Shown one piece after another: positions 23,463 through 38,274 of a DNA stretch of 39,553 nt. The DNA is from Mesorhizobium sp. (GTDB taxonomy: Bacteria > Pseudomonadota > Alphaproteobacteria > Rhizobiales > Rhizobiaceae), in the NCBI RefSeq assembly GCF_017306545.1, contig NZ_JAFKID010000041.1:1-39553 (forward strand), read 5' to 3'. The first letter of the stretch is position 1; each line of letters starts with the position of its first letter. The notes beneath the pieces were generated by a model. That model saw only the letters and a program-made list of their open reading frames with translations. It had not been told where the DNA came from and made no database searches. The translations under genes were made by a program, and so were the position numbers.

Positions 23463-23476
23463 TCTTCTTCCCGATA

Positions 23477-23539: not shown

Positions 23540-25036
23540 ATGAACGTTCTCTACATCGACATCGACAGCCTGCGGCGCGACCATCTCGGCTGCTACGGCT
23601 ACCATCGCAACACCTCGCCGGTGATCGACAGCCTGGCGCGCGACGGCATCCGCTTCGAGAACGTCTATGTCTCCGACGTGCCCTGCCATCCCTCGCGCAC
23701 CGCGCTGTGGAGCGGCCGCCACGGCATGCGCACCGGCGTCGTCGGCCATGGCGGCACCGCCTGCGAGCCGTTCCGAGAGGGTCCGGAGCGCGCCTGGGCC
23801 GGCACCTTCTACGAAGAAGGCTGGATGCGCGCGCTGCGCGATCTCGGCTACCACACCACCACGATCTCCAGCTTCGGCGAACGGCACGGCTGCTGGCACT
23901 GGTATGCCGGCTTCAGCGAGATCATCAATCCCGGCAAGGCCGGCATGGAAAACGCCGACGAAGTGTCGGCGCTGGCGCTGGATTGGCTCAAGCGCAACGG
24001 CTCGCGCGAAAAGTGGTTCCTGCACGTCAATGTCTGGGACCCGCACACGCCCTACCGCGCGCCGGAGAGTTTTGGCGAGCCCTTCGCCGACGCGCCGCTG
24101 CCCGAATGGATGACCGAGGCCGTGTTCAAGCGCAGCCACGCCGGCTACGGGCCGCACAGCCCGCAGGAGCCGTCCGGCTTCGACGTGGCGCCGGGCGGGT
24201 CCGGCTACCGCCGCATGCCCTCGCCGATCAGCGACATGGCGCGGGTCAAATCCTGGTTCGACGGCTACGACACAGGCGTGCTCTACGCCGATCACCATAT
24301 CGGGCTGATCGTCGAGGAACTGAAGCGGCAGGGCCTGTTCGAGAACACCATCATCGTCATCGGCGCCGACCATGGCGAGAATCTCGGTGAGTTGAACATC
24401 TGGGGCGATCATCAGACGGCCGACGAATACACTTGCAACGTGCCGCTGGTGATCCGCTGGCCTGGCGCTGCCGATATGCGCGGCGTCAACAGCGGCCTGC
24501 ACTACCATTTCGACTGGGCGGCGACGCTGATCGACCGCCTCGGCGGCAGCGTGCCCGCCGTCTGGGACGGGCAATCCTTCGCGCCGGCGCTCAAGCAGGG
24601 CAAGGACGGCGGCCGCGACTACCTGGTGCTCAGCCAGGGTGCCTGGGCGGTGCAGCGCGGCGTGCGCTTTCGTCTTGACGGCGCAGACTGGCTAATGCTG
24701 CGCACCTATCACGACGGCTACAAGGATTTCGGGCCGGTCACGCTCTTCAACCTTAGCGACGACCCGCATGAACAACACGATCTTTCGGGATCACGGCCCG
24801 ATGTGATCAATCATGCCAGCCGCTTTCTGGAAGACTGGCGCACCGACATGGCCGTCAAGAGCGACGGCGACGTCGATCCGCTGGTGACAGTGATGCGCGA
24901 GGGCGGGCCGTTCCACTGTCGCGGCGAGCTTCCGGCCTATCTGGAACGGCTGCGCGCGACCGGCCGGGCGGGCGCGGCCGCCGTGCTGGAGGAGCGCCAT
25001 CCCGCCCCGTCGCCGCGCCGCCAGTCGCTGAACTAG
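23540..25036 (+). CDS. Type I sulfatase (alkaline phosphatase superfamily), cytoplasmic
   Basis: A 498-aa hydrolase. Cys49 in PCHPSRTALWSGRHG is the CxPSR motif converted to formylglycine in type I sulfatases. Metal-site residues are seen in LYIDIDSLRRDH (Asp7/Asp9), and in GADHGENLGE (Asp277, His278). His169 in WDPHTPY and His291 in WGDHQT are probable active-site residues. The N-terminus (MNVLYIDIDS) has no signal peptide or Tat motif, so the enzyme should act in the cytoplasm on imported substrate. No formylglycine-generating enzyme is encoded nearby. It follows the ABC genes after a terminator. The family also holds phosphonate monoester hydrolases, but CxPSR favours a sulfatase. Substrate unknown. 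Confidence 0.88.
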   Translation: MNVLYIDIDSLRRDHLGCYGYHRNTSPVIDSLARDGIRFENVYVSDVPCHPSRTALWSGRHGMRTGVVGHGGTACEPFREGPERAWAGTFYEEGWMRALRDLGYHTTTISSFGERHGCWHWYAGFSEIINPGKAGMENADEVSALALDWLKRNGSREKWFLHVNVWDPHTPYRAPESFGEPFADAPLPEWMTEAVFKRSHAGYGPHSPQEPSGFDVAPGGSGYRRMPSPISDMARVKSWFDGYDTGVLYADHHIGLIVEELKRQGLFENTIIVIGADHGENLGELNIWGDHQTADEYTCNVPLVIRWPGAADMRGVNSGLHYHFDWAATLIDRLGGSVPAVWDGQSFAPALKQGKDGGRDYLVLSQGAWAVQRGVRFRLDGADWLMLRTYHDGYKDFGPVTLFNLSDDPHEQHDLSGSRPDVINHASRFLEDWRTDMAVKSDGDVDPLVTVMREGGPFHCRGELPAYLERLRATGRAGAAAVLEERHPAPSPRRQSLN

Positions 25037-25282: not shown

Positions 25283-26335
25283 CTATCTGCTCTCGGGCGG
25301 GACGAATTCCCTCCAGTGGCCGGAAAGTTCGGGCATCTCGGCAAAAGTCTTGCGCGCATCTGCGGCGCGTCCCACAAGGTCCGAGGCCGACATGTTCTTT
25401 CCGCGGCAATAGTCATCGAGGGTTGCGACGCTCTCGGAGATCACGCCGAAGCCGCGCAGCATGACGGCGGAGGCGAGCCCCACCGCCGAAGCCCCCGCCA
25501 GCATCATGCGAGCAACGTCATGCCCGTCGGTTGCGCCGTTGATGCCGATCAGCGGCTGGTCCGGCCTTAAGGCAGCGCGGCACAGCGCAAGCCAATGGCA
25601 TGTGAGCGGGAGGTTCCAGAACCCGCCATAGCCTCCGGAGGTTCCGATCATCGGCGCCTGCGTTTCGAGATCGGGCAGCATTCCCAGAAGCCGCCCGGCG
25701 ACGATCACGCTCTCGGCTCCTGCCTCGACCGCCGCCTTGGCAAGCTGCGGGACGTCGTTCGACTGCCCTGTAAGCTTGATCCAGACGGGGATGGAGACTG
25801 TATCGCAAATGCGGCGAGTGATCGTTGCGACCCGATCCGCAACGGTTTCGGTCGACACGGCGCCCGCCGCGGCCTCGCGCGCATAGGGCGTGCCGATGTT
25901 GAATTCCAGCACGCGCAGCCCGGCCTGCTCGACGGTCCGGGCCATCTCGACCGCACGGTCGAGGTCGGCCAGGATCAGGCTCGGGATCAGAAGGCAATCA
26001 TGTTTCCGGGCAAGGGCATCGTGGGCAACAGCCTGTGCCAGCCAAGCGTCGAATTCCAGTGGATGCAGGCCGGATCGCGACAGGATCATCGTTGCGGGAT
26101 TTGCCTGCGGCCCCCATTCGACCGGCCTCCACCGGTTGTCGAGCGCGACGTATTCGGCCGCGCGAAGCTGCGCCTTGGCGGCCGTGCTCTCGTTGGTCGA
26201 CTTGACGACCACGGCGCCCGCCCCGGCGCGGATCGCCGCCTGGACTCCGCCGTCCACGATCATGTGCTCCGCCGGCGCGGCTATCACCGGGTTTTTGAGA
26301 TCGAGTGTGCCGATGCGGCTTTGCAAACGGGTCAT
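25283..26335 (-). CDS. Dihydroorotate dehydrogenase-like FMN protein
   Basis: A 350-aa FMN-dependent (beta/alpha)8 protein of the DHODH/dihydropyrimidine dehydrogenase family. It shows the start IGTLDLKNPVIAAPAEH, the flavin-site segment GAGAVVVKSTNE (Lys45), EFNIGTPY, IPVWIKLTGQ, and a C-terminal phosphate-binding region GINGATDGHDVARMMLAGAS. I set the start at ATG 26335 because the frame upstream only runs through the aldolase gene; no strong ribosome site is visible. It is the last gene of the leftward island. A true pyrimidine-synthesis role is unlikely in this context; reduction or oxidation of a ring C=C bond in a catabolic substrate is the inference. The nearest known relatives by look are PreA/PydA-type proteins. 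Confidence 0.75.
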   Translation of the reverse strand: MTRLQSRIGTLDLKNPVIAAPAEHMIVDGGVQAAIRAGAGAVVVKSTNESTAAKAQLRAAEYVALDNRWRPVEWGPQANPATMILSRSGLHPLEFDAWLAQAVAHDALARKHDCLLIPSLILADLDRAVEMARTVEQAGLRVLEFNIGTPYAREAAAGAVSTETVADRVATITRRICDTVSIPVWIKLTGQSNDVPQLAKAAVEAGAESVIVAGRLLGMLPDLETQAPMIGTSGGYGGFWNLPLTCHWLALCRAALRPDQPLIGINGATDGHDVARMMLAGASAVGLASAVMLRGFGVISESVATLDDYCRGKNMSASDLVGRAADARKTFAEMPELSGHWREFVPPESR

Positions 26336-26400
26336 GTTCCGACGAAGGATGCTGAAATCAGGAAAGGTATCACGTGGCGGCTCGACTGCCGGATACGATG

Positions 26401-27177
26401 TTACCTTGCAGCCCCAACGCCGCCGCGGATGGTACTCAGCGCCGCTTTGGCCGCGCTCTTGAGAAAGCCCTGGTCGGCGGAGAGGATGAAGGCGGTAACT
26501 CCTTGCGCGGCCATGTCGGCCGCGTCCTCCGGGCTTCCAGGCAGGATCGCTGCCGGCATCCTTCCGCGCGCAGCCGAAAGCACGTGCCGGGTCGCTTCGG
26601 CCGCCGCCTCCGGTCCTTTCCCCGCTCCGGTATAAGCGGCGCTGAGGTCGCCGCGGCCGATGAAAATGCCGTCGAGACCCTCGACTTCCAGGATCTCGTC
26701 GATGCGGTCCACCGCCTCGGGGTCCTCGATCATCGCAATCACGGTCACGCGGGCGTCCTGCCTCGCGATATGGTCCTCCATACCCTCGGCGCCGAATGTG
26801 CCGGCACGCGTGGTCGGCGCGAAGCCCCGACTTCCAGGGCGATACCGACATGCCGCGACCACCGCGCGCGCTTTCTCCGCGCTGTCGACATGGGGCACGA
26901 GGACGCCATCGGCGCCGCAGTCGAGAACCGACAGGAGCGCCGCCGGCTGGGCGCTCTGCACGCGCACGACAGAGGCGATGCCCCAGGCCTTGCACGCCAG
27001 CACGATCGCGTCAGTCGTCTCGCGGTTGAAAGGGGAGTGCTCCTCGTCGACGACAACGAAGTCGTAGCCCACGGCGCCGAGAATCTCGGCCGGCATGGTG
27101 GCGGGAATCTTGAGGAAGGAACCGTAGAGTTCCTCCCGATCCAGGAAGCGCTTACGGAAGCCGGTGGCGGCGGTCAT
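26401..27177 (-). CDS. HpcH/HpaI-family class II aldolase
   Basis: A 258-aa metal-dependent pyruvate aldolase. His47 (DEEHSPF), Arg72 (VVRV), Glu151 (MIEDPEA) and Asp177 (GRGDLSA) match HpaI His45, Arg70, Glu149 and Asp175 with a constant shift of two, giving the full catalytic and metal set. The family cleaves 4-hydroxy-2-keto acids to pyruvate or a related keto acid plus an aldehyde. Length is normal. It lies 65 bp before the DHOD-like gene and 66 bp after the DUF6282 gene, in the leftward operon. The actual keto acid is not known. Confidence 0.87.
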   Translation of the reverse strand: MTAATGFRKRFLDREELYGSFLKIPATMPAEILGAVGYDFVVVDEEHSPFNRETTDAIVLACKAWGIASVVRVQSAQPAALLSVLDCGADGVLVPHVDSAEKARAVVAACRYRPGSRGFAPTTRAGTFGAEGMEDHIARQDARVTVIAMIEDPEAVDRIDEILEVEGLDGIFIGRGDLSAAYTGAGKGPEAAAEATRHVLSAARGRMPAAILPGSPEDAADMAAQGVTAFILSADQGFLKSAAKAALSTIRGGVGAAR

Positions 27178-27243
27178 GTGTATCTCCAGTTCTGTCTTCT
27201 ATCGCGCCGGTTGGACAGGCGCAGAGCAGATCGGGCCGGGCGG

Positions 27244-28173
27244 TCAGGCCGCCGCCTCGAGCCCGAGCGCCTTCACGGCGTTGGAGGCGACCATCTTGTG
27301 GATCGCCGCGTCGTCGTAGCCAAGGTCGAGACAGACCGCGACGGCACGCCGGAAGCCGTCGACCGGGGCAAGGGTACCGACCTGGCCGAGGTCGGAGCAG
27401 AAGATCGTCTGGTCCACGCCCGCGGCCTTGATGTGGTTATGCAGGTCCTCGCTTGTCCGCGTCCTGAATTTCGAGCCCTCGAGGAAGAAAGCCAGTGAGT
27501 GCTCGACATAGGCCCCCATCGCGGCGATCCCCTTCACATCGTTCAGCGAAGCGCCGACGATGTCTTCGGGATGGGTGAACATCAGTCGCGAAACGCCGCG
27601 CCGCCTGGCCTCCTCGAACACTTTCCACGTCTCGGACACATGGATGTGGCCGCTTGCCAACGCGATGTCGTTCTTGGCGACAATGTCCAGCACCTCCTTG
27701 ACGTCGTCGCGCACCTCTCCGTTCGCATCGAGCACCGGAACCGGAGAAGCGTGGCGCATCTTCTGCGTCGAGGCTGGGTGGGACCAGTTGGCGCTCTTCT
27801 CCCATGCGAGGTGGTTCTCGGCGGCGAGCGTCGGCAGGAAAACGATCTTCGCCCCCATGGCGATGGCATGCTCCACCGCGTAGGGATTGATGCCGCCGAC
27901 CACGTTGTTCAGCACCAGCGAGGTGTAGACCTTCGTCTTCAGTTCGGGGAAATTGTCATTGATCAGGATCGCCGTCGCGGTCCCGGCATAGTCGTGATCC
28001 TTGGTCACAACCGCGCTGAATCCGGCGGCTGAGGCCTGGCGCGCCAGTTCCAGATGGTCGAGCGCGCGCGGCGCGATCGAAGGGCCGGAATGGACGTGAG
28101 GATCGACTGCGCCCTGGAGGATCCTGTCGATCCGGGCAGCGAGTTCGGGCGTGGGAGTGAAGGGGGTATCCAT
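27244..28173 (-). CDS. DUF6282-like protein with amidohydrolase-type metal motif
   Basis: A 309-aa protein that I take to belong to the DUF6282 family. It shows an amidohydrolase-like order of metal ligands: Asp24-Pro-His26-Val-His28 (DPHVHSGPS), Lys58 in VVTKDHDYAG, a later His in ASGHIHVSE, His in MFTHPED and Asp in FCSDLGQ. This predicts a (beta/alpha)8 metal hydrolase acting on C-N or lactone bonds, though the family is uncharacterised as far as I know. AGGAGG lies 8 bases before the ATG. It sits in the leftward operon between the flavodoxin-fold protein and the aldolase. Ring opening of a lactam, imide or lactone is the inferred role. Confidence 0.78.
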   Translation of the reverse strand: MDTPFTPTPELAARIDRILQGAVDPHVHSGPSIAPRALDHLELARQASAAGFSAVVTKDHDYAGTATAILINDNFPELKTKVYTSLVLNNVVGGINPYAVEHAIAMGAKIVFLPTLAAENHLAWEKSANWSHPASTQKMRHASPVPVLDANGEVRDDVKEVLDIVAKNDIALASGHIHVSETWKVFEEARRRGVSRLMFTHPEDIVGASLNDVKGIAAMGAYVEHSLAFFLEGSKFRTRTSEDLHNHIKAAGVDQTIFCSDLGQVGTLAPVDGFRRAVAVCLDLGYDDAAIHKMVASNAVKALGLEAAA

Positions 28174-28273
28174 CTTTTTGCCTCCTGGGCTGTATCAGGA
28201 ATCCGGCGCCCGCGATGGAACTGCCGGTTGAGCGACCCAGACCGTGCGATGCCGCCGGCCGGGCCGGAAACGG

Positions 28274-28990
28274 TTACGCGCGGGTCCAGGCCTGCGCTCC
28301 CATCCGGGCAAGCGCTGCCCGCGGGTCACGAATTTCAACACTCGGGGCAGCTTCGGCCGCGGCCACCACCCGCGTCCTCCATCGGGCAAGGCAGTCTGCT
28401 CTTTCCTCGTCACTGATGCGGGGGACCGCATAGGAGACGAAAGGCGCCTCCACCTCATAGCCCATGTATTCGAGTGCCAGACGCTTCAGCGGATAAAGAA
28501 CCCTCTCGATCGGGCCGTAGACATCTTCGTCCGAAAAGCGTTTCGGGGTCCCGCCGGTGGTCACGGAAATCAGCGCTCTGCGCCCCTTGAAGAAGCCGGT
28601 GTCGAAGCGACATCCGTCGACGTAGGCAAAACCGTAGGCCATGACCCGTTCGAACCAGCTTTTGAGAACGGCAGGCGGCGCACCCCACCAGAGCGGAAAT
28701 TGCAGCACCAGCAAATCCGCCGCCATCACCCGCTCCTGTTCGCGTGCGATCTCGGCAACAAAGCTGTCGGTCTCGGCTGCGTGGGCTTGCTCTGCTTGAT
28801 AGTGGAACTTCGCCGAATTCGCCGCGCCGGTGAAATCGCCCCGCCCTGCAACCGCATCGAACCCTTCGGCATAAAGATCCGAGACGACGGCCTCGTGCCC
28901 TGACGCTTCCAGCGCCTCGACGGCGACGGAAGTCAGCGCGCCGCTGAACGAGGCCGGCTCGGGATGGGCGTGAACGATCAGGACCCGCAT
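28274..28990 (-). CDS. Flavodoxin-fold NAD(P)H-dependent oxidoreductase (MdaB/NQO1-like)
   Basis: A 238-aa cytoplasmic flavoprotein. The N-terminus MRVLIVHAHPEPASFSGAL is the FMN/FAD phosphate loop of the NAD(P)H:quinone reductase family, LQFPLWWGAPPAVLKSWFERV is the family hallmark, and SVTTGGTP is the second flavin loop. It starts 4 bp after the cupin gene, so it is translationally close to it, and is followed by 100 bp before the DUF6282 gene. It may recycle a quinone intermediate or supply electrons to another enzyme of the island; neither is shown. Confidence 0.83.
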   Translation of the reverse strand: MRVLIVHAHPEPASFSGALTSVAVEALEASGHEAVVSDLYAEGFDAVAGRGDFTGAANSAKFHYQAEQAHAAETDSFVAEIAREQERVMAADLLVLQFPLWWGAPPAVLKSWFERVMAYGFAYVDGCRFDTGFFKGRRALISVTTGGTPKRFSDEDVYGPIERVLYPLKRLALEYMGYEVEAPFVSYAVPRISDEERADCLARWRTRVVAAAEAAPSVEIRDPRAALARMGAQAWTRA

Positions 28991-28994
28991 CGCC

Positions 28995-29900
28995 TCATTC
29001 TCCGGGCATCGGATAATCGTCCGCGTTCAGGACCCAGCCGGGTTTCTGTGAGAAATCCAGCCGCGGCGGGCAGAAGATGTCGACGAGCTGGTTCACGCCC
29101 GCTGCCACACCGCGCGAGGTGTGGATCGCCGGCGGCGGGATCACCAGGACCGAGGGTGCATCGCATGTCTCGTGCCGGTCGTCGCGCCACATCCGCATGT
29201 CGGGTGTCCAGGCCCAGCGCAGATGATGGATGAAGCTGCCTTCGAGGGCGAGCGAGCATTGCTCGAAATCGTCATGATGATGGGGCGACAGTTTGGTGAT
29301 GTCGCGCGGGCCGTTCTGCGGCTCGAGGAAGTTGACCATCAGCGTCTCGCCGCGCCAGATACGGCCGAAGCGCCCCGGTTGGGGCGGCACGTCGAGCGAG
29401 TAGACGCGCACCTTGCGGCCTCCTCGCGGCGCGGGCCATGGCGTGATCGGGGCGACGTTCGGGTGATCTTCGGCATAGGCAGCGGCATTGCCGCAGGCGG
29501 CGGCGAGATCGGAGGCCACGCTGGTGAAGATGCGCACGACCTCGCCCTTGCCGTGAACCGTCACCTTGCTCGCCCCCGCGGGGATGAAAGCGATCGAGAA
29601 GGCTGGCACGTCGGTTGTCGTGCCGCCGCTCTCGACCGACGCCGAGACATCCTTGCTCGGCAGCAGCAGGACATATTCGTCGGGTTGGCCGGCTCGCTCG
29701 AAGACCGCGCCATCCTCTGCCTTGGAGTAGGCGACCACGGCGTTCTGGCTGCGGATCAGCCAGGTTCTCGCGCCGTCCGCGTCGACTTGCGGCGCGTCCT
29801 CGTAGAAGCGGCCGATATCCGGGGGGGCATAGGCGGTAAAGACGGGAGCGCCGGAAGCGGCGGGCGCAAGGCTCGAGCGGGGGTCGGTTGGGTCGTACAT
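28995..29900 (-). CDS. Cupin-domain protein of unknown function
   Basis: A 301-aa soluble protein with two cupin-like halves. In the C-terminal half HHHDDFEQCSLALEG fits cupin motif 1 (HxH, Glu, Gly) and IPPPAIHTSRG supplies the motif-2 His, so one intact metal site is likely. The N-terminal half (about 60-130, with VLLLPSKD and AFIPAGASKV) looks like a cupin barrel without a clear His triad. There is no signal peptide. GAGGAG lies just before the ATG. It is placed right after the transporter genes; a dioxygenase, isomerase or lyase role is possible. I do not recognise a characterised relative. Confidence 0.75.
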   Translation of the reverse strand: MYDPTDPRSSLAPAASGAPVFTAYAPPDIGRFYEDAPQVDADGARTWLIRSQNAVVAYSKAEDGAVFERAGQPDEYVLLLPSKDVSASVESGGTTTDVPAFSIAFIPAGASKVTVHGKGEVVRIFTSVASDLAAACGNAAAYAEDHPNVAPITPWPAPRGGRKVRVYSLDVPPQPGRFGRIWRGETLMVNFLEPQNGPRDITKLSPHHHDDFEQCSLALEGSFIHHLRWAWTPDMRMWRDDRHETCDAPSVLVIPPPAIHTSRGVAAGVNQLVDIFCPPRLDFSQKPGWVLNADDYPMPGE

Positions 29901-29924
29901 GATTTCTCCTCTTCCGATGCAGGG

Positions 29925-30824
29925 TCAGCGCCGGCTTGAGCGTAAAGTCTTGATCTGGGCGAGGATGCCCTGCGGAAAGACCAGCAGCACAACAAGCAGG
30001 ACGCTGAGCGCCGCAACGTTCTTGAAGCTCGCGCCGAGCAGGGCGATGGCGAGGGCCTGGAACACGCCGAGCAAAATCCCGCCCGTCACCGCGCCCGCCG
30101 CAGAGCCGAAACCGCCGATGATGGCGGCGATGAAGCCGTTGACGCCGAAGGGCGTACCGATGTTGTAGGCGGTGATCTGGCTCGGAGTGATCAGGATGCC
30201 GGCGACGGCGCCGAGCCCTGCGCTGAGCGCGAATGAGAGCATCATCATGCGGCGGACCGGGACGCCGAGCAGCGCCGCCGCCTCGGCGTTCTGCGAACAG
30301 GCGCGCAACGCCCGGCCACTGCGGGTGCGGGTGAAGAAGGCCCACAGGCCGGCCACCATCAGCGCGCCGCAGCCGAGGACCCAGAAGAACTGGTAGGGCA
30401 GGGCGACGCCGCCGACCATCAGCGGCCCCCCCGGCGTGAAGGAATCGAAGGTGCGCGGCTGGTCGCCCAGGCCGAGAAGCGTGACCTGCTCGATCAGCAT
30501 CTGGCAGGCGAGGGTAGCGAGGATGATGGCGAAGATCGACGCGCCTCGCTTCCACATCGGGCGGACGATCGCCACTTCCATGGCGACGCCGATCAGCGCG
30601 ACGACGGGAACGGTGACGAGCGCCGCGAGCCAGATCGGCAGGCCGGCATGCGCGAGGAAGGTGGCGCAGATCATTCCGCCCAGCATGACGAAGACGCCCT
30701 GGCCGAAATTCACGATGCCGGAGGCGTTGTAGATGACGCAGAAGCCGATCCCGATCAGCCCATAAATGAGTCCGAGGCCGACGCCGTTGATGAGGTTCTG
30801 CGCGAGTTGGACGACGTCAATCAT
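29925..30824 (-). CDS. Branched-chain-type ABC transporter permease (LivH-like)
   Basis: A 299-aa inner-membrane permease of the LivH type with about eight hydrophobic segments and the LivH start NGVGLGLIYGLIGIGFCVIYNASG. The second ATG (30824) is preferred over that at 30827: GGAGG then lies 6 rather than 3 bases upstream. An ATG at 30884 is inside livG and rejected. The gene overlaps the end of livG by 8 bases. The family carries amino acids, amides, urea and aromatic acids, so the substrate is open. Confidence 0.88.
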   Translation of the reverse strand: MIDVVQLAQNLINGVGLGLIYGLIGIGFCVIYNASGIVNFGQGVFVMLGGMICATFLAHAGLPIWLAALVTVPVVALIGVAMEVAIVRPMWKRGASIFAIILATLACQMLIEQVTLLGLGDQPRTFDSFTPGGPLMVGGVALPYQFFWVLGCGALMVAGLWAFFTRTRSGRALRACSQNAEAAALLGVPVRRMMMLSFALSAGLGAVAGILITPSQITAYNIGTPFGVNGFIAAIIGGFGSAAGAVTGGILLGVFQALAIALLGASFKNVAALSVLLVVLLVFPQGILAQIKTLRSSRR

Positions 30825-31590
30825 CATAACCCTCCGTGCCGCCGAGATAGGCGGCGATGACATCGGGGTGGACGCGGATCTCATCCGGCGTTCCCTCGGC
30901 GATCTTGCGGCCGTAGTCGAGCACGGCGATGCGATGGGCGATCTGCATGACGAGGCCCATGTCGTGTTCGATCAGCATGATGGTGACGCCGTTCTCGTTG
31001 ACCTTGCGGACCACCCGCGCCAGTTCGGCCGTCTCCTCGGTGTTGAGCCCGGCAGCCGGCTCGTCGAGGAGCAGGAGCTTCGGGCTTGCCGCCAGCGCGC
31101 GGGCGACTTCGAGAAGCCGCTGCTCGCCGTAGGGCAGGAGGTCTGCGGTAACGTTGGCGCGGTGGGAAAGTCCGACGAAGTCGAGGATCTCCGCCGTTTT
31201 CGCGGCGATCTCGCGCTCCTGGCGGCGCATGGCGGGCGGCCTGAGCAGCGCAGAGAAGACCCCGCCCGTGGTGACGCGATGGAAGCCCACCATCACGTTC
31301 TCGGCCACCGTCAAGGCCTTGAAGAGCTGGACGAGCTGATAGGTCCGCACCAGGCCCGCCTGGGCGATCTGGGCCACCGGCCGGCCCGAGATCGCCGCGC
31401 CGTCGAACATCACCTTCCCCTCGGAGGGCGGGAAGGTGCCGGCGATCATGTTGAAGAGCGTCGTCTTGCCGGCCCCGTTCGGGCCGATCACGGCGAATAT
31501 CTCTCCCTTCTCCACCTGGAAGGTGACGTCGTCATTGGCGACGAGACCGCCGAAGCGCTTGGTGATGCCCTGGATAGCCAGCATGGCCAT
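30817..31590 (-). CDS. Branched-chain-type ABC transporter ATPase (LivG-like)
   Basis: A 257-aa ATPase. Walker A GPNGAGKTT, Q-loop RTYQLVQLF, signature region LPYGEQRLLEVARAL and Walker B LLLLDEPAAGLN are present, and the C-terminal GTPDEIRVHPDVIAAYLG is the LivG tail. GGAGGG lies 8 bases before ATG 31590. It is 3 bp after livM and overlaps livH by 8 bases, so the transporter genes are tightly coupled. Confidence 0.9.
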   Translation of the reverse strand: MAMLAIQGITKRFGGLVANDDVTFQVEKGEIFAVIGPNGAGKTTLFNMIAGTFPPSEGKVMFDGAAISGRPVAQIAQAGLVRTYQLVQLFKALTVAENVMVGFHRVTTGGVFSALLRPPAMRRQEREIAAKTAEILDFVGLSHRANVTADLLPYGEQRLLEVARALAASPKLLLLDEPAAGLNTEETAELARVVRKVNENGVTIMLIEHDMGLVMQIAHRIAVLDYGRKIAEGTPDEIRVHPDVIAAYLGGTEGYDD

Positions 31591-31593
31591 GTC

Positions 31594-32562
31594 TCAGCCC
31601 TCCCGCTTCGGCAGCAGCCGGTCGAGAAGGCCTGCGACACCCTTCGGCGCGTAGATCAGGATTCCCAGCAGAATCACCAGATAGCCGATCGTCTGGTAGT
31701 CCTTGAGGCCGCGCATCAGTTCGGGCAGGAGCGAGACGACGACCGCCCCGATCAACGGCCCAGCGATCGTGCCGATGCCGCCGAGGTAGAGCATGGTGAA
31801 GCTCTGCACGACCATCGCGGTGCCGAAGACTTCGGGGCTGATGAAGCCGACAAAATGGGCGAAAAGCGAGCCGGCGGCGGATGCGTAGAGCGCAGCGATC
31901 ACGAAAGAGACGAGCTTGTAGCGCGCGACCGGGATGCCCAGCGCCCCGGCGGCAAGCTCCGACCCCGCGATCGCCCGGCAGGCCCTCCCGAAACGGGAGT
32001 TTTTCAACGCCGCCGCCGCCAGGACGCCGAGCGCCAGAAGGATAAGGATCACGGCGAGCTGCTGCTTGGGCGTATCGGCGTAGTAGGGCCCGATGCCCAA
32101 TGGCGGAATGCCGGAATAGCCCATGTAGCCCTGGGTCACGTCGGTCCAGTTGATCGAGATCTCATAGGTGATGAGGCCGAGCGCGAAGGTCGCCATGGCG
32201 AGGTAGTGGCCGCGCAGGCGCAGCGTCGGATAGCCGACGACCAGCGCGACCACGCCGGAAAACGCCATGGTCAGGATAAGCGCTATCGCCGGCTCGAAAC
32301 CATAGTCGGCGGTGAGGATGGCGCTGCCGTAACCGCCGAGGGCGGCGAAAGCGTTCTGGCCGAAGGAGGCCTGCCCGGTGAATCCCATGAAGAAATTGAG
32401 GCCGGTGCAGAACAGCGCATAAATCGCGGCGAAACCGATTACCGTCACGACGTAACCGTTGGCGGAGAAGGCAAAGGCGACGACCAGCACGCCCAGCGCC
32501 GCGAGCAGGATATGCCGCCAGGGCAACCCGCCGCTAGTGGAGGTAGTAACGGGCAAGGTCAT
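31594..32562 (-). CDS. Branched-chain-type ABC transporter permease (LivM-like)
   Basis: A 322-aa permease of the LivM type with about nine hydrophobic segments. Family strings are GLNFFMGFTGQASFGQNAF, LRLRGHYLAMATFALGLI, GRACRAIAGSELAAGALG and MLYLGGIGTIAGPLIGAV. The start is not certain: ATG 32562 gives a normal length and a 29-base overlap with livF, and ATG 32580 would add six residues. Neither has a strong ribosome site, so coupling to livF translation is likely. Confidence 0.87.
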   Translation of the reverse strand: MTLPVTTSTSGGLPWRHILLAALGVLVVAFAFSANGYVVTVIGFAAIYALFCTGLNFFMGFTGQASFGQNAFAALGGYGSAILTADYGFEPAIALILTMAFSGVVALVVGYPTLRLRGHYLAMATFALGLITYEISINWTDVTQGYMGYSGIPPLGIGPYYADTPKQQLAVILILLALGVLAAAALKNSRFGRACRAIAGSELAAGALGIPVARYKLVSFVIAALYASAAGSLFAHFVGFISPEVFGTAMVVQSFTMLYLGGIGTIAGPLIGAVVVSLLPELMRGLKDYQTIGYLVILLGILIYAPKGVAGLLDRLLPKREG

Positions 32563-33247
32563 GGTGCGACTTGATCTCATGGGAAGGCAACTCCGCGACG
32601 ATACGCCCAAGCGAAAGCACGTAGACCCGACGGGCGAGCCGGAGCGCCAAGGGCGCCTTTTGCTCGACCAGAAGGATACCGAGGCCCTGGCGATTGAGTT
32701 CACCCAGTGTTTCGAGGATTTCCCCGGCCACGCGCGGAGCGAGGCCGAGCGAAGGTTCATCCAGCATCAGGAGCTTTGGGCCGGCCATCATCGCGCGCCC
32801 GATGGCGAGCATCTGCTGCTCGCCGCCGGACATCAGCGCCGCCTTCTGGTCGAGCCGCTCCTTGAGGCGGGGAAACAGGCTGAAGACCTTCTCCATCCGC
32901 GCCGCGATCTCGGCCGTATCGCCGCCGGCATTGTAGGCGCCGAGGACCAGGTTCTCGCGCACGCTCATGTCGCCGAAGAGGCCACGTCCCTCCTGGACCA
33001 GGATTATGCCAAGCTCCGAAAGCTTGTGCGTCGGCAAGGCGCTGACGTCGCGGCCCTTGAAAAGGATCGCGCCCGGTCCGGGAGTGAGGCGGGTGACGGC
33101 GCGCAGAAGCGTCGACTTGCCCGCCCCGTTGGGGCCCAGGATCGTCACCAACTCTCCCTCCGCGACAGTCAGCGAGGTCGGCTTGAGCGCCTCGACATGA
33201 CCGTAGCGGGCCGAAAGATCGCGAATTTCCAGAAGCGGCGTGGTCAT
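32534..33247 (-). CDS. Branched-chain-type ABC transporter ATPase (LivF-like)
   Basis: A 237-aa ATPase, the second of the pair. Walker A is GPNGAGKST, signature MSGGEQQMLAIGRAM, Walker B LLMLDEPSLGLAP, and the ending ELPSHEIKSHHDLARYYLH is typical of LivF. It starts 7 bp after the binding-protein gene and overlaps livM. Confidence 0.9.
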   Translation of the reverse strand: MTTPLLEIRDLSARYGHVEALKPTSLTVAEGELVTILGPNGAGKSTLLRAVTRLTPGPGAILFKGRDVSALPTHKLSELGIILVQEGRGLFGDMSVRENLVLGAYNAGGDTAEIAARMEKVFSLFPRLKERLDQKAALMSGGEQQMLAIGRAMMAGPKLLMLDEPSLGLAPRVAGEILETLGELNRQGLGILLVEQKAPLALRLARRVYVLSLGRIVAELPSHEIKSHHDLARYYLH

Positions 33248-33254
33248 GCCGGGC

Positions 33255-34400
33255 TCACTTCACCTGGACGAGTTTGCCGTCCTTGACCTCGCCGATCACG
33301 AAGGGGTTCTTGACGACCCCGACGTGCTGCTGCGGCGAGAATTCGTAGAGCGCGGCGGCTCCCTGGTAATGCGAGACCTGCTCCAGCGCGTCGCGTACTT
33401 TCGCGCCGTCGGTCGAGTGCGCGGTTTCCACCGCCTTGGCGATGACCATCATCGCGTCCCAGGCGCGCGACGCCGCACTTCCGTCGCGATCGCCGTACTT
33501 CGCCTTCCAGCGCGTCAGGAAAGCGTCGAGCGCCTCGCGCGCGGGCCCGGCCGGCACGGCCTCGGGGATCTGCACGGTGGTCGCCGCAAACATGAAATGG
33601 TCGCCAAGAACCTGCCCTGCCTGGAGATAGGGCGCGGCATCGTCCAGCCCCGCCATGAGCAGCATGTCCTTCAGGCCAAGCTGGTTGACGTTCTTGGCAA
33701 TCGTAACGGTCGAGCCGCCGATGCCGATCTTGATGAGTGCGGTCGCGCCCGCCGCCTTGATGCGGCCGATCTGGACGCTCATGTCGCTGTCGTCCTGCTG
33801 ATAGGTTTCGTGGGCGACGATCTCGATGCCGTATTTCTTGGCCGCCGGATCGGCGAGCTTGGCCATCAGCATCGCGTAGGGGGTCGGGTCGTTCAGCACG
33901 CCAACCTTGCGGATGTCGGTATGGTCCTTGAGGTACTGCATCCGCGCCTCGAGTTCGTAGATAGGCGGCGGCAGGAAGCTGAAAGCCCAATGGATCTCGT
34001 TGTCGCGGCGCGGCAGGATCGAGCAGAGAACCATCGGAATATTGGCCCGCGCAACCGCGCCGGCCGCGGCGAAATTGCCCGCCGAGACACAGCCTGACGC
34101 GAAGATCTGCACCTGATCGTTCGCCATCATCTTCTGATAGGCGACGACCGCCTGCTGCGGGTCGGACTTATTGTCCTCGACGACCAGCTCGATCTTGTGC
34201 CCGTCGATCCCGCCCTTCTCGTTGAGATAGTCGGCAGCGATCTCGAGCCCGTCGCGCCAGCCTCGGTCGGTGGTGGCGGCGTAGCCGGTCAGGCCGACGG
34301 CGGCGCCGATCTTGTAGACATCTGCGGCATGGGCGACCGGCACGGCCAGCGTAAGCGCCAGGGCTGCGGCGGCCGCGATGGACATAGTGCGTCTCGACAT
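33255..34400 (-). CDS. Branched-chain-type ABC transporter substrate-binding protein (LivJ-like)
   Basis: A 381-aa periplasmic binding protein of peripla_BP_6 type. ATG 34400 is chosen since GGAGGAG lies 4 bases upstream and the N-terminus becomes a signal peptide (MSRRTMSIAAAAALALTLAV..., cleaved near AHAAD). The mature start VYKIGAAVGLTGYAATTDRGWRDGL and QAVVAYQKMMANDQV are family features. It is the first gene of the leftward operon and lies behind the operator-like cluster at 34421-34458. The family is broad and the ligand cannot be assigned. Confidence 0.88.
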   Translation of the reverse strand: MSRRTMSIAAAAALALTLAVPVAHAADVYKIGAAVGLTGYAATTDRGWRDGLEIAADYLNEKGGIDGHKIELVVEDNKSDPQQAVVAYQKMMANDQVQIFASGCVSAGNFAAAGAVARANIPMVLCSILPRRDNEIHWAFSFLPPPIYELEARMQYLKDHTDIRKVGVLNDPTPYAMLMAKLADPAAKKYGIEIVAHETYQQDDSDMSVQIGRIKAAGATALIKIGIGGSTVTIAKNVNQLGLKDMLLMAGLDDAAPYLQAGQVLGDHFMFAATTVQIPEAVPAGPAREALDAFLTRWKAKYGDRDGSAASRAWDAMMVIAKAVETAHSTDGAKVRDALEQVSHYQGAAALYEFSPQQHVGVVKNPFVIGEVKDGKLVQVK

Positions 34401-34420
34401 ATTTCTCCTCCCAGAGATTA

Positions 34421-34458
34421 TTTCGTTGACCGAAACAGTGTTTCGTATCTCTGAAACA
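34421..34458 (-). promoter_or_regulatory. Operator-like cluster before livJ, candidate IclR-family sites
   Basis: The perfect inverted repeat CGAAACA-G-TGTTTCG spans 34431-34445. It is flanked by TTTCG at 34421-34425, pairing with CGAAA at 34431-34435, and by TGAAACA at 34452-34458, pairing with TGTTTC at 34439-34444 over 8 bp. The GAAACA-x-TGTTTC core resembles the known KdgR (IclR family) box. It sits between iclR and livJ, overlapping the expected transcription start of livJ. Confidence 0.7.
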
Positions 34459-34477
34459 TTTTGGGAGGCCGTGTCAA
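34449..34477 (-). promoter_or_regulatory. Candidate promoter of the livJ operon
   Basis: On the minus strand TTGACA (34477-34472) is a perfect -35, followed after 17 bp by TCAGAG (34454-34449), a poor -10. The inverted repeat at 34431-34445 would lie at about +5 to +20, fitting repression. Confidence 0.4.
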
Positions 34478-34488
34478 GTCCCTCGCGC

Positions 34489-35271
34489 TTATTCGAGCAC
34501 GTAGCCGAGTTCCGAGGAAATGGTGCGGGCGGCCTCGATGACCGCCGCGATCTGTTCCTGGGCGGGAACCGGCGGAAGAAACTGAACCGAATCGACGACG
34601 GCAACCGCCCCGACCAGAGCCCCCGACCCCTCGAAGATCGGGGCGGCCAGCGTGTTGATGCCGATCATCGCTTCGCTGGGGGCGGTGGCCCAACCCTGAT
34701 GACGGATCTGCTCGATCTCGGTGCGAAGGGCGGCAGGCGTAGAGATCGTGTACTCGGTCATCTTCTCGAGCCGGGAATTGAGCACCTGGGCGCGCAGCGT
34801 CTCGGAACCGAAAGTCAGGCCGATCTTGCCCTGCGCCGAGGAATGGAACGGCAGGAGGGAGCCGGGGCGCACCCCGATTTCTATGGGCGATTTCCCTATA
34901 ATCGTTGAAAGAATCCGCACGCCGTCGATCTCCACCTGCGACACGACGGCGGAGTGGCCGAGCTTGTCCCGAAGCGCTCGCAACGCGCGGTAGCTGGCGA
35001 TCGCAAGGTCCTGGTTGTCGTTTGCCGCGCGCGCCAGAGCGATCAGCCGCAGGCCGATCCGGTAGCGTTCGGTCGTCTCCGATTGCAGGATATAGCCGTG
35101 CTGCTTGAGCGTATGCAGATGGCGGAAAATGCGGCTCTTGGTTGTTCCCAGGGCCTCGGCCAGGGCGGTCACGCCCATCGGCTTGCCCTCCTCGGCCAGT
35201 TTTTCGAGAATCTTCAGTGCCAGCGCAACCGCCTGCACGCCGTCGCCGGACTCACCCGTCACCTTCGGCAT
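34489..35271 (-). CDS. IclR-family transcriptional regulator
   Basis: A 260-aa regulator of usual length. Residues about 12-75 are the IclR winged helix (ALKILEKLAEEGKPMGVTALAEAL..., KSRIFRHLHTLKQHGYI). Residues about 85-255 are the GAF-like effector domain (GHSAVVSQVEIDGVRIL, PFHSSAQGK, INTLAAPIFEGSGALVGAVAV). AAGGAGG is 5 bases before the ATG. It lies between the leftward catabolic operon and the divergent BKACE-SDR genes, and half-sites of one motif occur at its own promoter and both others. It is thus the likely regulator of the whole island. The effector is probably an acid or aromatic-like intermediate, by family. Confidence 0.9.
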   Translation of the reverse strand: MPKVTGESGDGVQAVALALKILEKLAEEGKPMGVTALAEALGTTKSRIFRHLHTLKQHGYILQSETTERYRIGLRLIALARAANDNQDLAIASYRALRALRDKLGHSAVVSQVEIDGVRILSTIIGKSPIEIGVRPGSLLPFHSSAQGKIGLTFGSETLRAQVLNSRLEKMTEYTISTPAALRTEIEQIRHQGWATAPSEAMIGINTLAAPIFEGSGALVGAVAVVDSVQFLPPVPAQEQIAAVIEAARTISSELGYVLE

Positions 35272-35335
35272 CCTAGCCTCCTTGAATCTGTCATTGGAAA
35301 GCGCGGAACAACCGGCCGCGCATTGTGTTGCACTG

Positions 35336-35372
35336 AATATAAAGGGCTACGCCGTTTTTTCTAACGAAACAA
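35336..35372 (-). promoter_or_regulatory. Candidate iclR promoter with adjoining TTGTTTCGTT site
   Basis: On the minus strand TTAGAA (35364-35359), a 17-bp spacer and TATATT (35341-35336, five of six consensus bases) form a promoter. TTGTTTCGTT (35372-35363) abuts and overlaps the -35. The same 10-mer occurs on the opposite strand at 35495-35504 upstream of the BKACE gene. Confidence 0.5.
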
Positions 35373-35494
35373 GCGCCACGACGGCATCGATGGTTCGGCT
35401 CACGCCCATCCAACGACGGACACCGGATCGCCGGGAGCACGCTCCCCGGCGTGCGGCTATCGAAAGATGGCGAAGTACCGACTTGACTCCCAAT

Positions 35495-35545
35495 TTGTTT
35501 CGTTCAACGATTTAATACTACTATTATGTTCTGTTAGATGAAACA
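35495..35545 (+). promoter_or_regulatory. Candidate BKACE promoter and operator half-sites
   Basis: TTGTTTCGTT (35495-35504) overlaps a possible -35 TTCAAC (35503-35508); TATGTT (35525-35530) after 16 bp could be the -10, and TATTAT at 35522 is an alternative. TGAAACA (35539-35545) follows, preceded by TGTTC at 35527-35531. The motif parts match those before livJ and iclR. Confidence 0.45.
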
Positions 35546-35633
35546 TCATGAGGAGCGAAGCCATGGAGACCCGGCATGCGAGCGCCCGGCGCCTCTTGCC
35601 TCCGCTCTCCCTCCGTTCAGGAAAGACCGCTCC

Positions 35634-36560
35634 ATGAGCCGCAAAGTCATCATCACCTGTGCCGTGACCGGATCGATCCACACCCCGTCGATGTCTCCGT
35701 ATCTGCCAATCACGCCCGAGCAGATCGCCGAGGCCGCGATCGGTGCGCGCGAGGCGGGTGCCGCGATCGTCCATTTGCACGCGCGCGATCCCGAAACCGG
35801 CCAACCGGACCAGCGCCCGGAAGCCTTCGAACCGTTCCTGAAAGTCATCAAGCAGCGATCGGATGTGGTGATCAACATCACGACCGGCGGCGCGCCGACG
35901 ATGACGGTCGAGGAGCGGCTGCGCCCGGCCACGGTCTTCGAACCCGAGGTCGCCTCGCTCAACATGGGATCGATGAACTTCGGCCTCTTCCCGATCCTCG
36001 AAAAGAGGAACGACTTCCGCTTCGACTGGGAACGCGCCTATCTGGAGGGATCGCGCGACCGGGTCTTCCGCAACACCTTCGCCGACATTTCGAGCATCCT
36101 GAGCACCTGCGCGGGCAACCGCACGCGCTTCGAGATCGAGTGCTACGACATCGGCCATCTCTATACGCTCGACCACTTCGTCCAGCGCGGGCTCGTCGAG
36201 CCGCCGTTCTTCGTGCAGTCGGTCTTCGGCATTCTCGGCGGCATCGGCGCGCATCCCGAGGACGTGATGCACATGCGGCGGACCGCCGACCGTCTTTTCG
36301 GCGGAAAATATCACTGGTCGGTGCTCGGCGCGGGGCGCCACCAGATGCCGGTGGCGCTGCAATCGGTGCTTCTGGGCGGCCACCTGCGCGTCGGGCTGGA
36401 GGACTCGCTCTATGCCGGGCGCGGACGGCTGGCGCGCAGCAATGCCGAGCAGGTCGCGCTGGCGCGCCAGATGGTCGAAAGCCTGGGACTGGAAATCGCG
36501 ACCCCCGACGAGGCACGCGAGATCCTGAACCTGAAGGGCGGCGACAAGGTGGCCTTCTGA
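35634..36560 (+). CDS. DUF849/BKACE-family beta-keto acid cleavage enzyme
   Basis: A 308-aa cytoplasmic zinc enzyme of the 3-keto-5-aminohexanoate cleavage (Kce/BKACE) family, which transfers the acetyl unit of a beta-keto acid to acetyl-CoA to give acetoacetate and a shortened acyl-CoA. Zinc ligands His47 and His49 (VHLHARD) and the conserved Glu256 in GLEDSLY are present, as are NITTGGAPTM and AGRHQMPVA. ATG 35634 gives the usual N-terminus KVIITCAVTGSIHTPSMSPY; AGGAAAG lies about 9 bases upstream. It is first of a rightward pair with an SDR and divergent from iclR. Family members differ in substrate (dehydrocarnitine, amino- or hydroxy-keto acids), which sequence alone does not settle. Confidence 0.9.
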   Translation: MSRKVIITCAVTGSIHTPSMSPYLPITPEQIAEAAIGAREAGAAIVHLHARDPETGQPDQRPEAFEPFLKVIKQRSDVVINITTGGAPTMTVEERLRPATVFEPEVASLNMGSMNFGLFPILEKRNDFRFDWERAYLEGSRDRVFRNTFADISSILSTCAGNRTRFEIECYDIGHLYTLDHFVQRGLVEPPFFVQSVFGILGGIGAHPEDVMHMRRTADRLFGGKYHWSVLGAGRHQMPVALQSVLLGGHLRVGLEDSLYAGRGRLARSNAEQVALARQMVESLGLEIATPDEAREILNLKGGDKVAF

Positions 36561-36596
36561 AGCAATTTCGCGAAAAGCGCGAAGCGGCTTTCCGTC
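36561..36596. repeat. Dispersed palindromic element, partial copy 2
   Basis: AGCAATTTCGCGAAAAGCGC and the following bases align to 25037-25072 at 25 of 36 positions. Both copies begin directly after a stop codon. The right half of the element seen at 25033-25134 is not evident here; instead a different hairpin follows at 36618-36646. Confidence 0.55.
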
Positions 36597-36617
36597 AGGA
36601 TAGCCAGGGAGCCAAGA

Positions 36618-36646
36618 ACCGGACCGTTTGCGTGAAACGATCCGGT
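36618..36646. repeat. Stem-loop upstream of the island SDR gene
   Basis: ACCGGACCGTTT (36618-36629) and AAACGATCCGGT (36635-36646) pair at 11 of 12 positions around a 5-base loop GCGTG. The hairpin ends 2 bases before the GGAGGAG ribosome site of the next gene. It lacks a T-run, so it is not a classic terminator. It may be part of the repeat element, a processing site, or a structure that limits translation of the SDR. Confidence 0.65.
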
Positions 36647-36659
36647 GCGGAGGAGTGGG

Positions 36660-37409
36660 ATGGCTGCAAAGAGCGGGTTGGCGGGAAAGGTTGCGCTGGT
36701 CAGCGGCGGCTCGCGCGGGATCGGCGCGGCCGTCGCCCTTCGGCTTGCGCGCGACGGTGCCCGTGTCGTCGTGGGCTACAGGTCCGACGTGGCCTCGGCC
36801 GAGCGCGTGATTGCGGAACTAGCGACAGCGGGAAGCATGGGACAGGCCGTGGCGGCGGACATTGCCCGGCCCAAAGAATGCGAGCGGCTTGTCGCACAGG
36901 CACTTGAAGCCTTTGGCCGGCTGGACATTCTCGTGAACGCCGCCGGTGTCGCAACCTATCTCCCGCTCGAGGAGGCCGACGCGGACCACTTTCACGCCAC
37001 GTTCGATGCCAATGTGCTCGGCGCGCTGGCACTTACTCGCGCAGCTGCCCCGGTGATGACGGCGCCCGGCGGGCGCATCATTCACTTCTCGTCACGTCTG
37101 GCGCAGACGCCGCTCGCCGGCAGTTCTGTCTATGCCGCGTCGAAGGCGGCAGTTTCGGCGCTGGTGCTGGCGCTGGCGCAGGAACTCGGTCCGCGCGGGA
37201 TCACCATCAACGCCGTCGCCCCTGGGGTGATCGAGACAGATATGACGGCGGGCGTGATCCGCGAGCGCGGCGATGCAATCCGCTCGCTGACACCCTTACG
37301 GCGCATCGGCCAGCCCGAGGATATCGCCGGCCTGGTTGCCTTCCTCGCCTCGGATGACGGAGGCTGGATCAACGGCCGGACAATCCGGGCCGATGGCGGA
37401 ATGTTGTAG
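36660..37409 (+). CDS. SDR-family oxidoreductase, FabG-like
   Basis: A 249-aa classical short-chain dehydrogenase. SGGSRGIG at residues 15-22 is the cofactor loop, Arg41 after the second strand favours NADP(H), NAAG is at 93-96, and Ser145, Tyr158 and Lys162 (YAASK) form the catalytic set. The end NGRTIRADGGML is typical. ATG 36660 has GGAGGAG 4 bases upstream and is preferred over ATG 36645. Behind the BKACE gene it may make or use a beta-keto/beta-hydroxy acid, for example oxidising a hydroxy acid to the BKACE substrate. It is not likely to be the housekeeping FabG given the context. Confidence 0.85.
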   Translation: MAAKSGLAGKVALVSGGSRGIGAAVALRLARDGARVVVGYRSDVASAERVIAELATAGSMGQAVAADIARPKECERLVAQALEAFGRLDILVNAAGVATYLPLEEADADHFHATFDANVLGALALTRAAAPVMTAPGGRIIHFSSRLAQTPLAGSSVYAASKAAVSALVLALAQELGPRGITINAVAPGVIETDMTAGVIRERGDAIRSLTPLRRIGQPEDIAGLVAFLASDDGGWINGRTIRADGGML

Positions 37410-38158: not shown

Positions 38159-38274
38159 TTCCTGCGGTTTCCGTCGGCAGCGCCGAGAAGCCGGCGCTTT
38201 CCGTGCTGTTGATAATCCTGCCGAGCAGCCGCGCAAAGCGCGATGTTCACGGCGACCGGCAATCGCTGGCTGCC

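Follow-up and report, generated by a model that had tools for sequence, protein, structure and literature searches.

A Probable Co-inherited Catabolic Regulon in Mesorhizobium That Joins DUF6282, a Bicupin, and an HpaI-Type Aldolase to Beta-Keto Acid Cleavage

Which compound is broken down by a gene cluster that combines a DUF6282 protein, a cupin without a family name, an HpaI-type pyruvate aldolase, and a beta-keto acid cleavage enzyme (BKACE)? The question is raised by 13 genes at positions 25283–37409 of contig NZ_JAFKID010000041.1 from Mesorhizobium sp., within a stretch of 39,553 nucleotides that was analyzed as a whole and is called the window here. The other products are a dihydroorotate dehydrogenase-like (DHOD-like) flavoenzyme, a flavodoxin-fold oxidoreductase, a short-chain dehydrogenase/reductase (SDR), a five-gene Liv-type ABC transporter, and an IclR-family regulator. 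A sequence-only reading had assigned them all to one catabolic regulon that fits no named pathway. The genes very probably do form a single co-inherited catabolic regulon. Catabolic operons are familiar in kind; this particular pathway seems not to have been described in the literature searched. With the co-inherited gene set, some bacteria of soil and plant habitats seem to take up an organic acid and degrade it.

All 13 genes were found in place by a check of open reading frames (ORFs), and family scans agree with the content that had been proposed. The hidden Markov model scans covered nine proteins against Pfam and NCBIfam, with LivM added later and LivH, LivG, and LivF outside the scan; eight of the nine received a Pfam family, as did LivM in its separate scan. 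The spans of the nine are 25286–26335 (DHO_dh), 26404–27177 (HpcH_HpaI), 27247–28173 (DUF6282), 28277–28990 (Flavodoxin_2), 28998–29900 (cupin), 33258–34400 (Peripla_BP_6), 34492–35271 (IclR), 35634–36557 (BKACE), and 36660–37406 (SDR). The genes are also as tightly spaced as had been claimed, with neighbors on the minus strand overlapping by at most 47 bp or separated by at most 100 bp (Table 1).

Co-inheritance across genomes

The case for a gene set assembled by more than chance comes from co-occurrence. Among 247 genomes of the window's family, a DUF6282 gene (E ≤ 1e-30) is found in 36 and the cupin gene (E ≤ 1e-20) in 29, so both are fairly common there, and the two occur together in 27 (Fisher p = 4e-26, or 3e-25 when the window's genome is removed). 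In the class as a whole few genomes carry the cupin (6/385), and within the family sample 32 of 38 cupin places have a DUF6282 gene no more than 12 kb away. Across 297 genomes of the order, the DHOD-like protein (E ≤ 1e-80) is hit three times, once in the window, and every hit adjoins a DUF6282 gene. These counts over 247 and 297 genomes are unconditional on the choice of neighborhood.

The neighborhoods themselves, numbered with the prefix L, were located via DUF6282 or cupin hits, which makes the 6-kb and reductase tallies conditional on these two; L068 and L076 entered the 6-kb tally through the DHOD-like protein. Flanks were covered for 35 of the 44 DUF6282 places in the family sample plus the window, with eight left out. 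The 6-kb tally leaves out the window, own-genome L001, L017, and L018, and the duplicated or overlapping L008, L026, L049, and L075. Genes in relatives come from a codon-score caller, which called almost nothing in L058; in L011 it overlooked four genes (DUF6282, cupin, flavodoxin, and SDR) that are visible from annotation and an ORF search. Counted in this way, 53 DUF6282 places have within 6 kb an HpaI gene at 44, the cupin at 35, BKACE at 18, and the DHOD-like gene at 12. Around 51 cupin places the same distance holds HpaI at 42, an RraA-like aldolase at 3, DUF6282 at 36, and BKACE at 27. DUF6282, HpaI, and the cupin keep together most consistently, and this partnership marks the cupin as a core enzyme.

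The transporter varies among loci. The Liv cluster of L003 (Rhodobacterales) has the same gene order as the window, with 12 genes at 76–89% protein identity; the order is partly present in L002 and L004, and L028 has the Liv genes in another arrangement. Elsewhere, a TRAP, TctABC, TAXI-TRAP, or MFS transporter takes the place of Liv. In 11 loci (L020, L031, L032, L039, L040, L041, L042, L044, L045, L047, and L011) TRAP transporters replace Liv, and in all of them BKACE, the flavodoxin-fold gene, and SDR are consecutive. This conserved block bears out the suggestion that the divergent BKACE and SDR genes are members of the pathway. The transporter variants also offer several binding proteins for ligand screening.

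A lack of co-occurrence in other genomes had been named as what would refute a single regulon, and the comparison of genome neighborhoods shows the opposite: DUF6282, the cupin, and BKACE do co-occur elsewhere, with the DHOD-like gene as an optional member. Chance assembly of neighbors from separate known pathways could draw on the breadth of the HpaI, SDR, and BKACE families, but it is contradicted by the co-occurrence statistics and by the blocks conserved with other transporters and is very improbable.

In the window's genus, DUF6282 of any type is found in 6 of 61 genomes, and the close type only in the window; the remaining DUF6282 proteins of the genus have 42–45% identity to the window's. 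This patchy distribution, together with the similarity across orders, suggests a possible horizontal transfer.

A motif shared by three promoters

Related palindromic, operator-like motifs are present at the promoters of LivJ, IclR, and BKACE, in agreement with the shared promoter motifs of the sequence-only reading, and both repeats of the LivJ promoter are kept in place in L003, an Acidimangrovimonas contig. A loose form of the pattern, with one mismatch allowed, gives seven rows in the window against 3.13 expected (at least seven in 2 of 100 shuffles), and four of the seven lie within the catabolic cluster. The pattern was derived from the cluster's own sites, so that the clustering provides no independent proof. 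A derived 17-mer with up to three mismatches gives 30 rows in the 4.8-Mb genome, five of which are the three sites of the catabolic cluster, compared with 44 for a reversed control. With the genome count below its control, a distant regulon was rejected, and no further regulon member could be named from the 17-mer scan of this genome. The clustering of the motif supports one local, putative regulon, and with the co-occurrence data it sustains the earlier proposal that the genes are regulated as one unit.

BKACE and the formation of acetoacetate

BKACE scores above the equivalog cut-off of NF053538, a family named 3,5-dioxohexanoate:acetyl-CoA acetone transferase. Aligned with 8rio, the BKACE15 of Paracoccus denitrificans, it matches over equal lengths on both sides with an offset of 2, and E169 and R252 correspond to E171 and R254 of that enzyme. 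In the available text of a study of BKACE15, E171 and R254 are catalytic, with E171 favored over R254 as the base, and this close homologue accepts several beta-keto acids (PMC11961710). For this reason the family name leaves the substrate unfixed; NF053538 membership is best taken as an assignment of reaction type and not of substrate. The BKACE chemistry likely yields acetoacetate. Genes for 3-oxoacid CoA-transferase A and B adjoin BKACE in L028 (NCBIfam) and DUF6282 in L009 (annotation), as expected if BKACE makes acetoacetate, and in L019 a gene like that for 3-hydroxyisobutyryl-CoA hydrolase, an acyl-CoA hydrolase, follows BKACE. Within the cluster, a BKACE type that accepts a broad range of substrates in vitro gains a pathway setting and likely products.

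The equivalog name, taken at its word, would point to a hydroxypyrone or phloroglucinol-type route in which a cyclic triketide is reduced and hydrolyzed to 3,5-dioxohexanoate, which BKACE would convert to acetoacetate and acetoacetyl-CoA. The passed cut-off and the CoA-transferase genes beside the loci of two relatives agree with this, as does the BKACE-type lyase that the available text on phloroglucinol degradation places in that pathway (PMC10470551). But none of the 10 scanned cluster proteins is a cyclase-family hydrolase or a TfD of the 3-hydroxyacyl-CoA-dehydrogenase type, the breadth of BKACE15 weakens the argument from the name (PMC11961710, in the text available), and the route leaves HpaI and the cupin without a role. 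We consider it quite improbable.

The bicupin and its aldolase partner

At E 0.001 the cupin is without a match in Pfam and NCBIfam. The model predicted for it has a mean pLDDT of 48.6, with most of the N-terminal half confident and the C-terminal half unusable. The N-terminal half matches cupin entries by fold (best E 3.8e-5), and the 50 structures listed as matching the model by fold, KdgF among them, are cupin proteins. A profile search of the PDB gave a best E of 1.1e-4, for a 43-residue match to a cupin. The motif of the C-terminal half is well conserved in 32 sequences, where H207, H209, and H260 are invariant and E213 is nearly so. A cupin site of three histidines and one glutamate also fits isomerases.

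The company of the cupin in relatives indicates where it may act. Homologues of the cupin and aldolase are found in L059 with an annotated 3-(3-hydroxyphenyl)propionate hydroxylase and a BphC-type dioxygenase, in L060 with an MhpB-like dioxygenase and BKACE, and in L061 with a p-hydroxyphenylacetate 3-hydroxylase oxygenase, a catechol 2,3-dioxygenase-like enzyme, and BKACE. The pair stands beside a Rieske oxygenase in L063, and in L074 cupin, HpaI, and BKACE genes occur together with a Rieske oxygenase that resembles AndAc (389 bits against a cut-off of 750). L059–L061 already have a dioxygenase to cleave the ring, and the cupin of these loci therefore more likely works on what ring cleavage leaves, together with the aldolase. 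An aldolase lies within 6 kb of 45 of the 51 cupin places, and the two enzymes therefore look like consecutive steps. That they are both consecutive and non-oxygenolytic is, in our judgment, an even call.

A competing explanation makes the bicupin itself a dioxygenase that cleaves a ring or a beta-diketone: a phenolic acid would be imported, the flavodoxin-fold protein would reduce a quinone, and DUF6282 and HpaI would process the fission product. This would supply the cluster with an oxygenase where no other is recognized, and it would give sense to the recurrence of a quinone-type reductase (Flavodoxin_2 or QOR) and to L074 and L063, where a Rieske oxygenase is paired with the cupin and no extradiol enzyme is recognized in the stretch. 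But a second ring-cleaving enzyme would be idle in L059, L060, and L061, and the site in the C-terminal half is one that would also suit isomerases; we consider this explanation unlikely.

HpaI scores under the cut-offs of two equivalogs: 126.2 vs 368.8 bits for the HpaI equivalog of the homoprotocatechuate (HPC) meta pathway (TIGR02311) and 136.3 vs 406.75 bits for GarL, a 2-dehydro-3-deoxyglucarate aldolase (TIGR03239). The best NCBIfam score, 137.8 bits, is again for a 2-dehydro-3-deoxyglucarate aldolase, with a cut-off of 393 that is not reached. This invites a comparison with the catabolism of sugar acids or deoxy-sugar acids, in which the cupin would resemble KduI, the SDR KduD or deoxyribonate dehydrogenase, and IclR KdgR, with HpaI a 2-keto-3-deoxy-acid aldolase and DUF6282 a lactonase. 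The KdgF fold match of the cupin fits such a scheme, as do the score of IclR against KdgR (99.4 bits, cut-off 275) and, in L072, a gene resembling D-galactarate/altronate dehydratase at a distance of about 6 kb from the cupin gene. The TRAP binding protein of L032 is closest in the PDB to DctP entries, which we take to be binders of uronates or aldonates. SDR, BKACE, and lactonase genes, moreover, make up the deoxyribonate cluster in the available text of PMC6365646. But no kinase or sugar isomerase is recognized in the window cluster, the Liv-type and aromatic-acid-type transporters are a misfit, and so is the association of the cupin with oxygenases of the extradiol and Rieske types. A sugar acid as the substrate is doubtful.

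Two minor observations concern the cupin. In L064, from Mameliella alba, annotation splits the cupin homologue at 9001–9899 into two pieces, one after the other, and the gene may be broken or frameshifted there. A SnoaL/NTF2-like protein of ~150–165 residues recurs near the cupin in L059, L061–L063, and L073–L075; it was recognized by Pfam in L059, L063, L073, and L074, by annotation in L061 and L062, and by reading in L075.

DUF6282 as a candidate metal hydrolase

The DUF6282 protein passes the PF19799 gathering cut-off by a wide margin (Table 1). Its fold is a TIM barrel of the amidohydrolase superfamily, with matches to phosphotriesterase (PTE)-like lactonases and renal dipeptidases, and H26, H28, K58, H60, H121, H176, H201, and D261 are invariant across 33 aligned sequences. 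Of these, H26, H28, H176, H201, and D261 would be candidates for the HxH, H, H, D metal ligands of the superfamily. In a profile search of the PDB the top rows are designed repeat proteins matched over 27 residues, which were read as an artefact; a renal dipeptidase follows at E 0.011. The open-licence PMC literature yielded no paper on DUF6282, and no function is described there, as far as it was searched, for DUF6282 or for the window's cupin family. With the cluster, both families gain a first biochemical setting and become testable enzymes with defined partners.

Alternating reductases

The DHOD-like protein falls far under every PyrD/PreA NCBIfam cut-off listed (PRK07259, 103.8 vs 269 bits; PreA, 83 vs 335 bits). 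It reads NIGTPY where the PyrDB chain 1ep1 reads NISCPN, and the NxSCPN catalytic motif is lost. Given the missed cut-offs and this replacement, neither dihydroorotate nor pyrimidine chemistry is to be assumed for the protein, and a reductive pyrimidine pathway was rejected on the PreA cut-off and the SCPN motif.

Across 52 loci, the flavodoxin-fold gene alone is found in 17, the DHOD-like gene alone in 8, a zinc-type quinone oxidoreductase gene alone in 8, the flavodoxin-fold and DHOD-like genes together in 1, and none in 18, some of these loci being incomplete; the count includes L008 and L026, which repeat the contig of L025. The window carries both the flavodoxin-fold and the DHOD-like gene. 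The DHOD-like enzyme had been placed at the first step of a working model, and as a required step it does not survive: it is near few DUF6282 places, largely alternates with two other reductases, and has lost its catalytic motif. The gene is optional, yet tied to DUF6282.

Two variants stand apart. The 179498-base contig shared by L025 and L026 holds two cupin–HpaI–DUF6282 sets about 17 kb apart, the second with added IclR, TRAP, flavodoxin-fold, and SDR genes, which suggests duplicated pathways for related substrates. In L013, L048, L050, L055, L068, and L076 a DHOD-like gene and DUF6282 are found with a small single-domain cupin and HpaI (unrecognized in L076), with no BKACE in the stretch and with an aldehyde dehydrogenase in all but L048. 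This set type is probably a sister pathway.

A model for the pathway

The reading that we prefer is an IclR-controlled regulon that would import a small carboxylate, perhaps derived from an aromatic ring, and funnel it to pyruvate and acetoacetate. DUF6282 would be a metal-dependent hydrolase that opens or splits a ring or lactone. The bicupin would act as an isomerase or hydratase, not as a ring-cleaving oxygenase, and prepare a 4-hydroxy-2-oxo acid, which HpaI would cleave to give pyruvate and an aldehyde. The remaining fragment may then be oxidized by the SDR, or in some relatives by an aldehyde dehydrogenase, to a beta-keto acid, from which BKACE with acetyl-CoA would form acetoacetate and an acyl-CoA. 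Because this exchange uses acetyl-CoA, the split would need no CoA ligase or thiolase. The flavodoxin-fold and DHOD-like proteins would be reductases that can largely stand in for each other and work on an activated double bond, as in an enone, or on a quinoid intermediate. The sequences show the gene content, the co-inheritance, the family memberships, the conserved catalytic residues of BKACE, and the shared operator-like motif. Apart from the class of the BKACE reaction, we infer the individual reactions, their order, and an aromatic ring as the probable source of the substrate. For the scheme as a whole we would give a probability of about 0.4. In its favor, in L019 and L022 the sole cluster transporter seen is an MFS protein nearest an aromatic-acid symporter family (below cut-off).

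Several observations weigh against this scheme. No oxygenase or CoA ligase is recognized in the window cluster, and the aromatic origin rests on relatives; in those relatives, no DUF6282 gene was found in the stretches of L059–L061, which carry the extradiol enzymes, or of L074. The DctP-like binding protein of L032 would point to a sugar acid. The BKACE family is broad, with 163 plasmid records matching at E 1e-50, and the window's genome has four more members at 33–62% identity and a single DUF6282 gene. A CoA-transferase gene is near only 2 of the 53 DUF6282 places. Nine of the 53 DUF6282 places and six of the 51 cupin places are without an aldolase within 6 kb, which contig ends and the 6-kb limit partly explain. 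DUF6282 stands without any partner gene in L005, and the stretch covered of L003 contains BKACE without an SDR.

The scheme might be extended to a general lower pathway for ring-fission products. The bicupin would replace the usual dienoate hydratase, HpaI would release pyruvate and a 3-oxoaldehyde, BKACE would use acetyl-CoA to split the derived beta-keto acid without a thiolase or CoA ligase, and in some bacteria DUF6282 would be the entry hydrolase for an imported ring acid without a dedicated oxygenase. This broader idea is speculative and rather unlikely.

Relation to described pathways

That no named pathway fits the cluster is upheld by comparison, as the four nearest described systems each differ from it. 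In the deoxyribonate pathway, at the level of families, an SDR is likewise paired with a BKACE for which the available text proposes the conversion of a beta-keto acid and acetyl-CoA to acetoacetate and an acyl-CoA; no glycerate kinase or MFS pair like that of the text (PMC6365646) is recognized in the window cluster, which adds the DUF6282, HpaI, bicupin, flavodoxin-fold, and DHOD-like genes. The anaerobic phloroglucinol pathway of Clostridium scatologenes also uses a BKACE-type lyase after a metal-dependent ring hydrolase and a dehydrogenase, but in the text available the hydrolase and dehydrogenase are of other families and there is no aldolase or cupin (PMC10470551). The phloroglucinol pathway as such was rejected, since no cyclase of the dihydrophloroglucinol cyclohydrolase type and no TfD were among the 10 scanned proteins. 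In the Variovorax isoflavone ifc cluster, cupins, alike by superfamily description, act after aromatic ring cleavage, there on a hydroxypyranone, but the main text is without the terms "aldolase" and "cleavage protein" (PMC11069340).

The reductive pyrimidine pathway of PreA/DPD similarly has a DHOD-like flavoenzyme adjoining a hydrolase of the amidohydrolase superfamily; the window's hydrolase is DUF6282, and no PreT-like gene is recognized. Homoprotocatechuate and other meta-cleavage lower pathways end with a class II pyruvate aldolase. The relatives of the window's cupin–aldolase pair adjoin extradiol dioxygenases as in meta cleavage, but the HpaI cut-off is missed, the annotation of L059 and L061 names no hydratase over the ~19 kb shown, and no extradiol enzyme is recognized in the window cluster. 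The HPC pathway was rejected because the HpaI equivalog cut-off was not reached. Among the matches listed from the open-licence PMC literature for papers combining the families, none describes the set, nor is it described in the available text of PMC3937715, PMC6449761, and PMC12421898.

Gene layout and neighboring features

Table 1. Genes and operator-like sites of the catabolic cluster, in window coordinates
Feature	Position	Strand	Basis
DHOD-like flavoenzyme, optional module	25283..26335	-	Pfam DHO_dh, 49.8 bits
HpcH/HpaI class II pyruvate aldolase	26401..27177	-	Pfam HpcH_HpaI, 99.6 bits
DUF6282, candidate amidohydrolase-superfamily metal hydrolase	27244..28173	-	Pfam PF19799, 236.8 bits (cut-off 26.8)
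Flavodoxin_2 NAD(P)H oxidoreductase	28274..28990	-	Pfam, 150.8 bits
Bicupin without family name	28995..29900	-	HxH-x3-E...H site in C-terminal half
LivH-like permease	29925..30827	-	ORF and conserved order; named from visible motifs
LivG-like ATPase	30817..31590	-	ORF and conserved order; named from visible motifs
LivM-like permease	31594..32580	-	Pfam BPD_transp_2, 149.1 bits
LivF-like ATPase	32534..33247	-	ORF and conserved order; named from visible motifs
LivJ-like binding protein	33255..34400	-	Pfam Peripla_BP_6, 193.7 bits
Two operator-like inverted repeats upstream of LivJ	34420..34457	.	GTTTC-N8-GAAAC and GTTTCGGTCAACGAAAT
IclR-family regulator	34489..35271	-	Pfam IclR_C and HTH_IclR
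Operator-like site upstream of IclR	35354..35370	.	Related copy of LivJ repeats
Operator-like half and full sites upstream of BKACE	35497..35544	.	Related copies of LivJ repeats
BKACE	35634..36560	+	NF053538, 539.6 bits (cut-off 430)
SDR dehydrogenase, candidate 3-hydroxyacid dehydrogenase	36660..37409	+	Pfam adh_short_C2

Just past the SDR gene, at 37673–38236 on the minus strand, lies what looks by reading like the frameshifted or truncated remains of an MFS-like transporter gene, the longest open piece of which is without a Pfam match. A membrane protein with four DUF347 repeats is encoded at 38275–39120 on the same strand and has no visible link to the cluster. On the other side, SsuABC-like transporter genes with an NMT1-type binding protein occupy 20637–25036 (Pfam for the binding protein only), and a sulfatase-like gene, by reading, begins at 23540, after the transporter genes. 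A second catabolic neighborhood at 10186–18548 holds an SDR, parts of a sugar-type ABC transporter, and an IlvD/EDD dehydratase (Pfam), as well as, by reading, an enzyme of the enolase superfamily and a GntR-type regulator, and probably serves sugar-acid use. Farther out, at 6353–8134 on the plus strand, lies a gene for a ShlB-type two-partner secretion pore (Pfam ShlB and POTRA_2).

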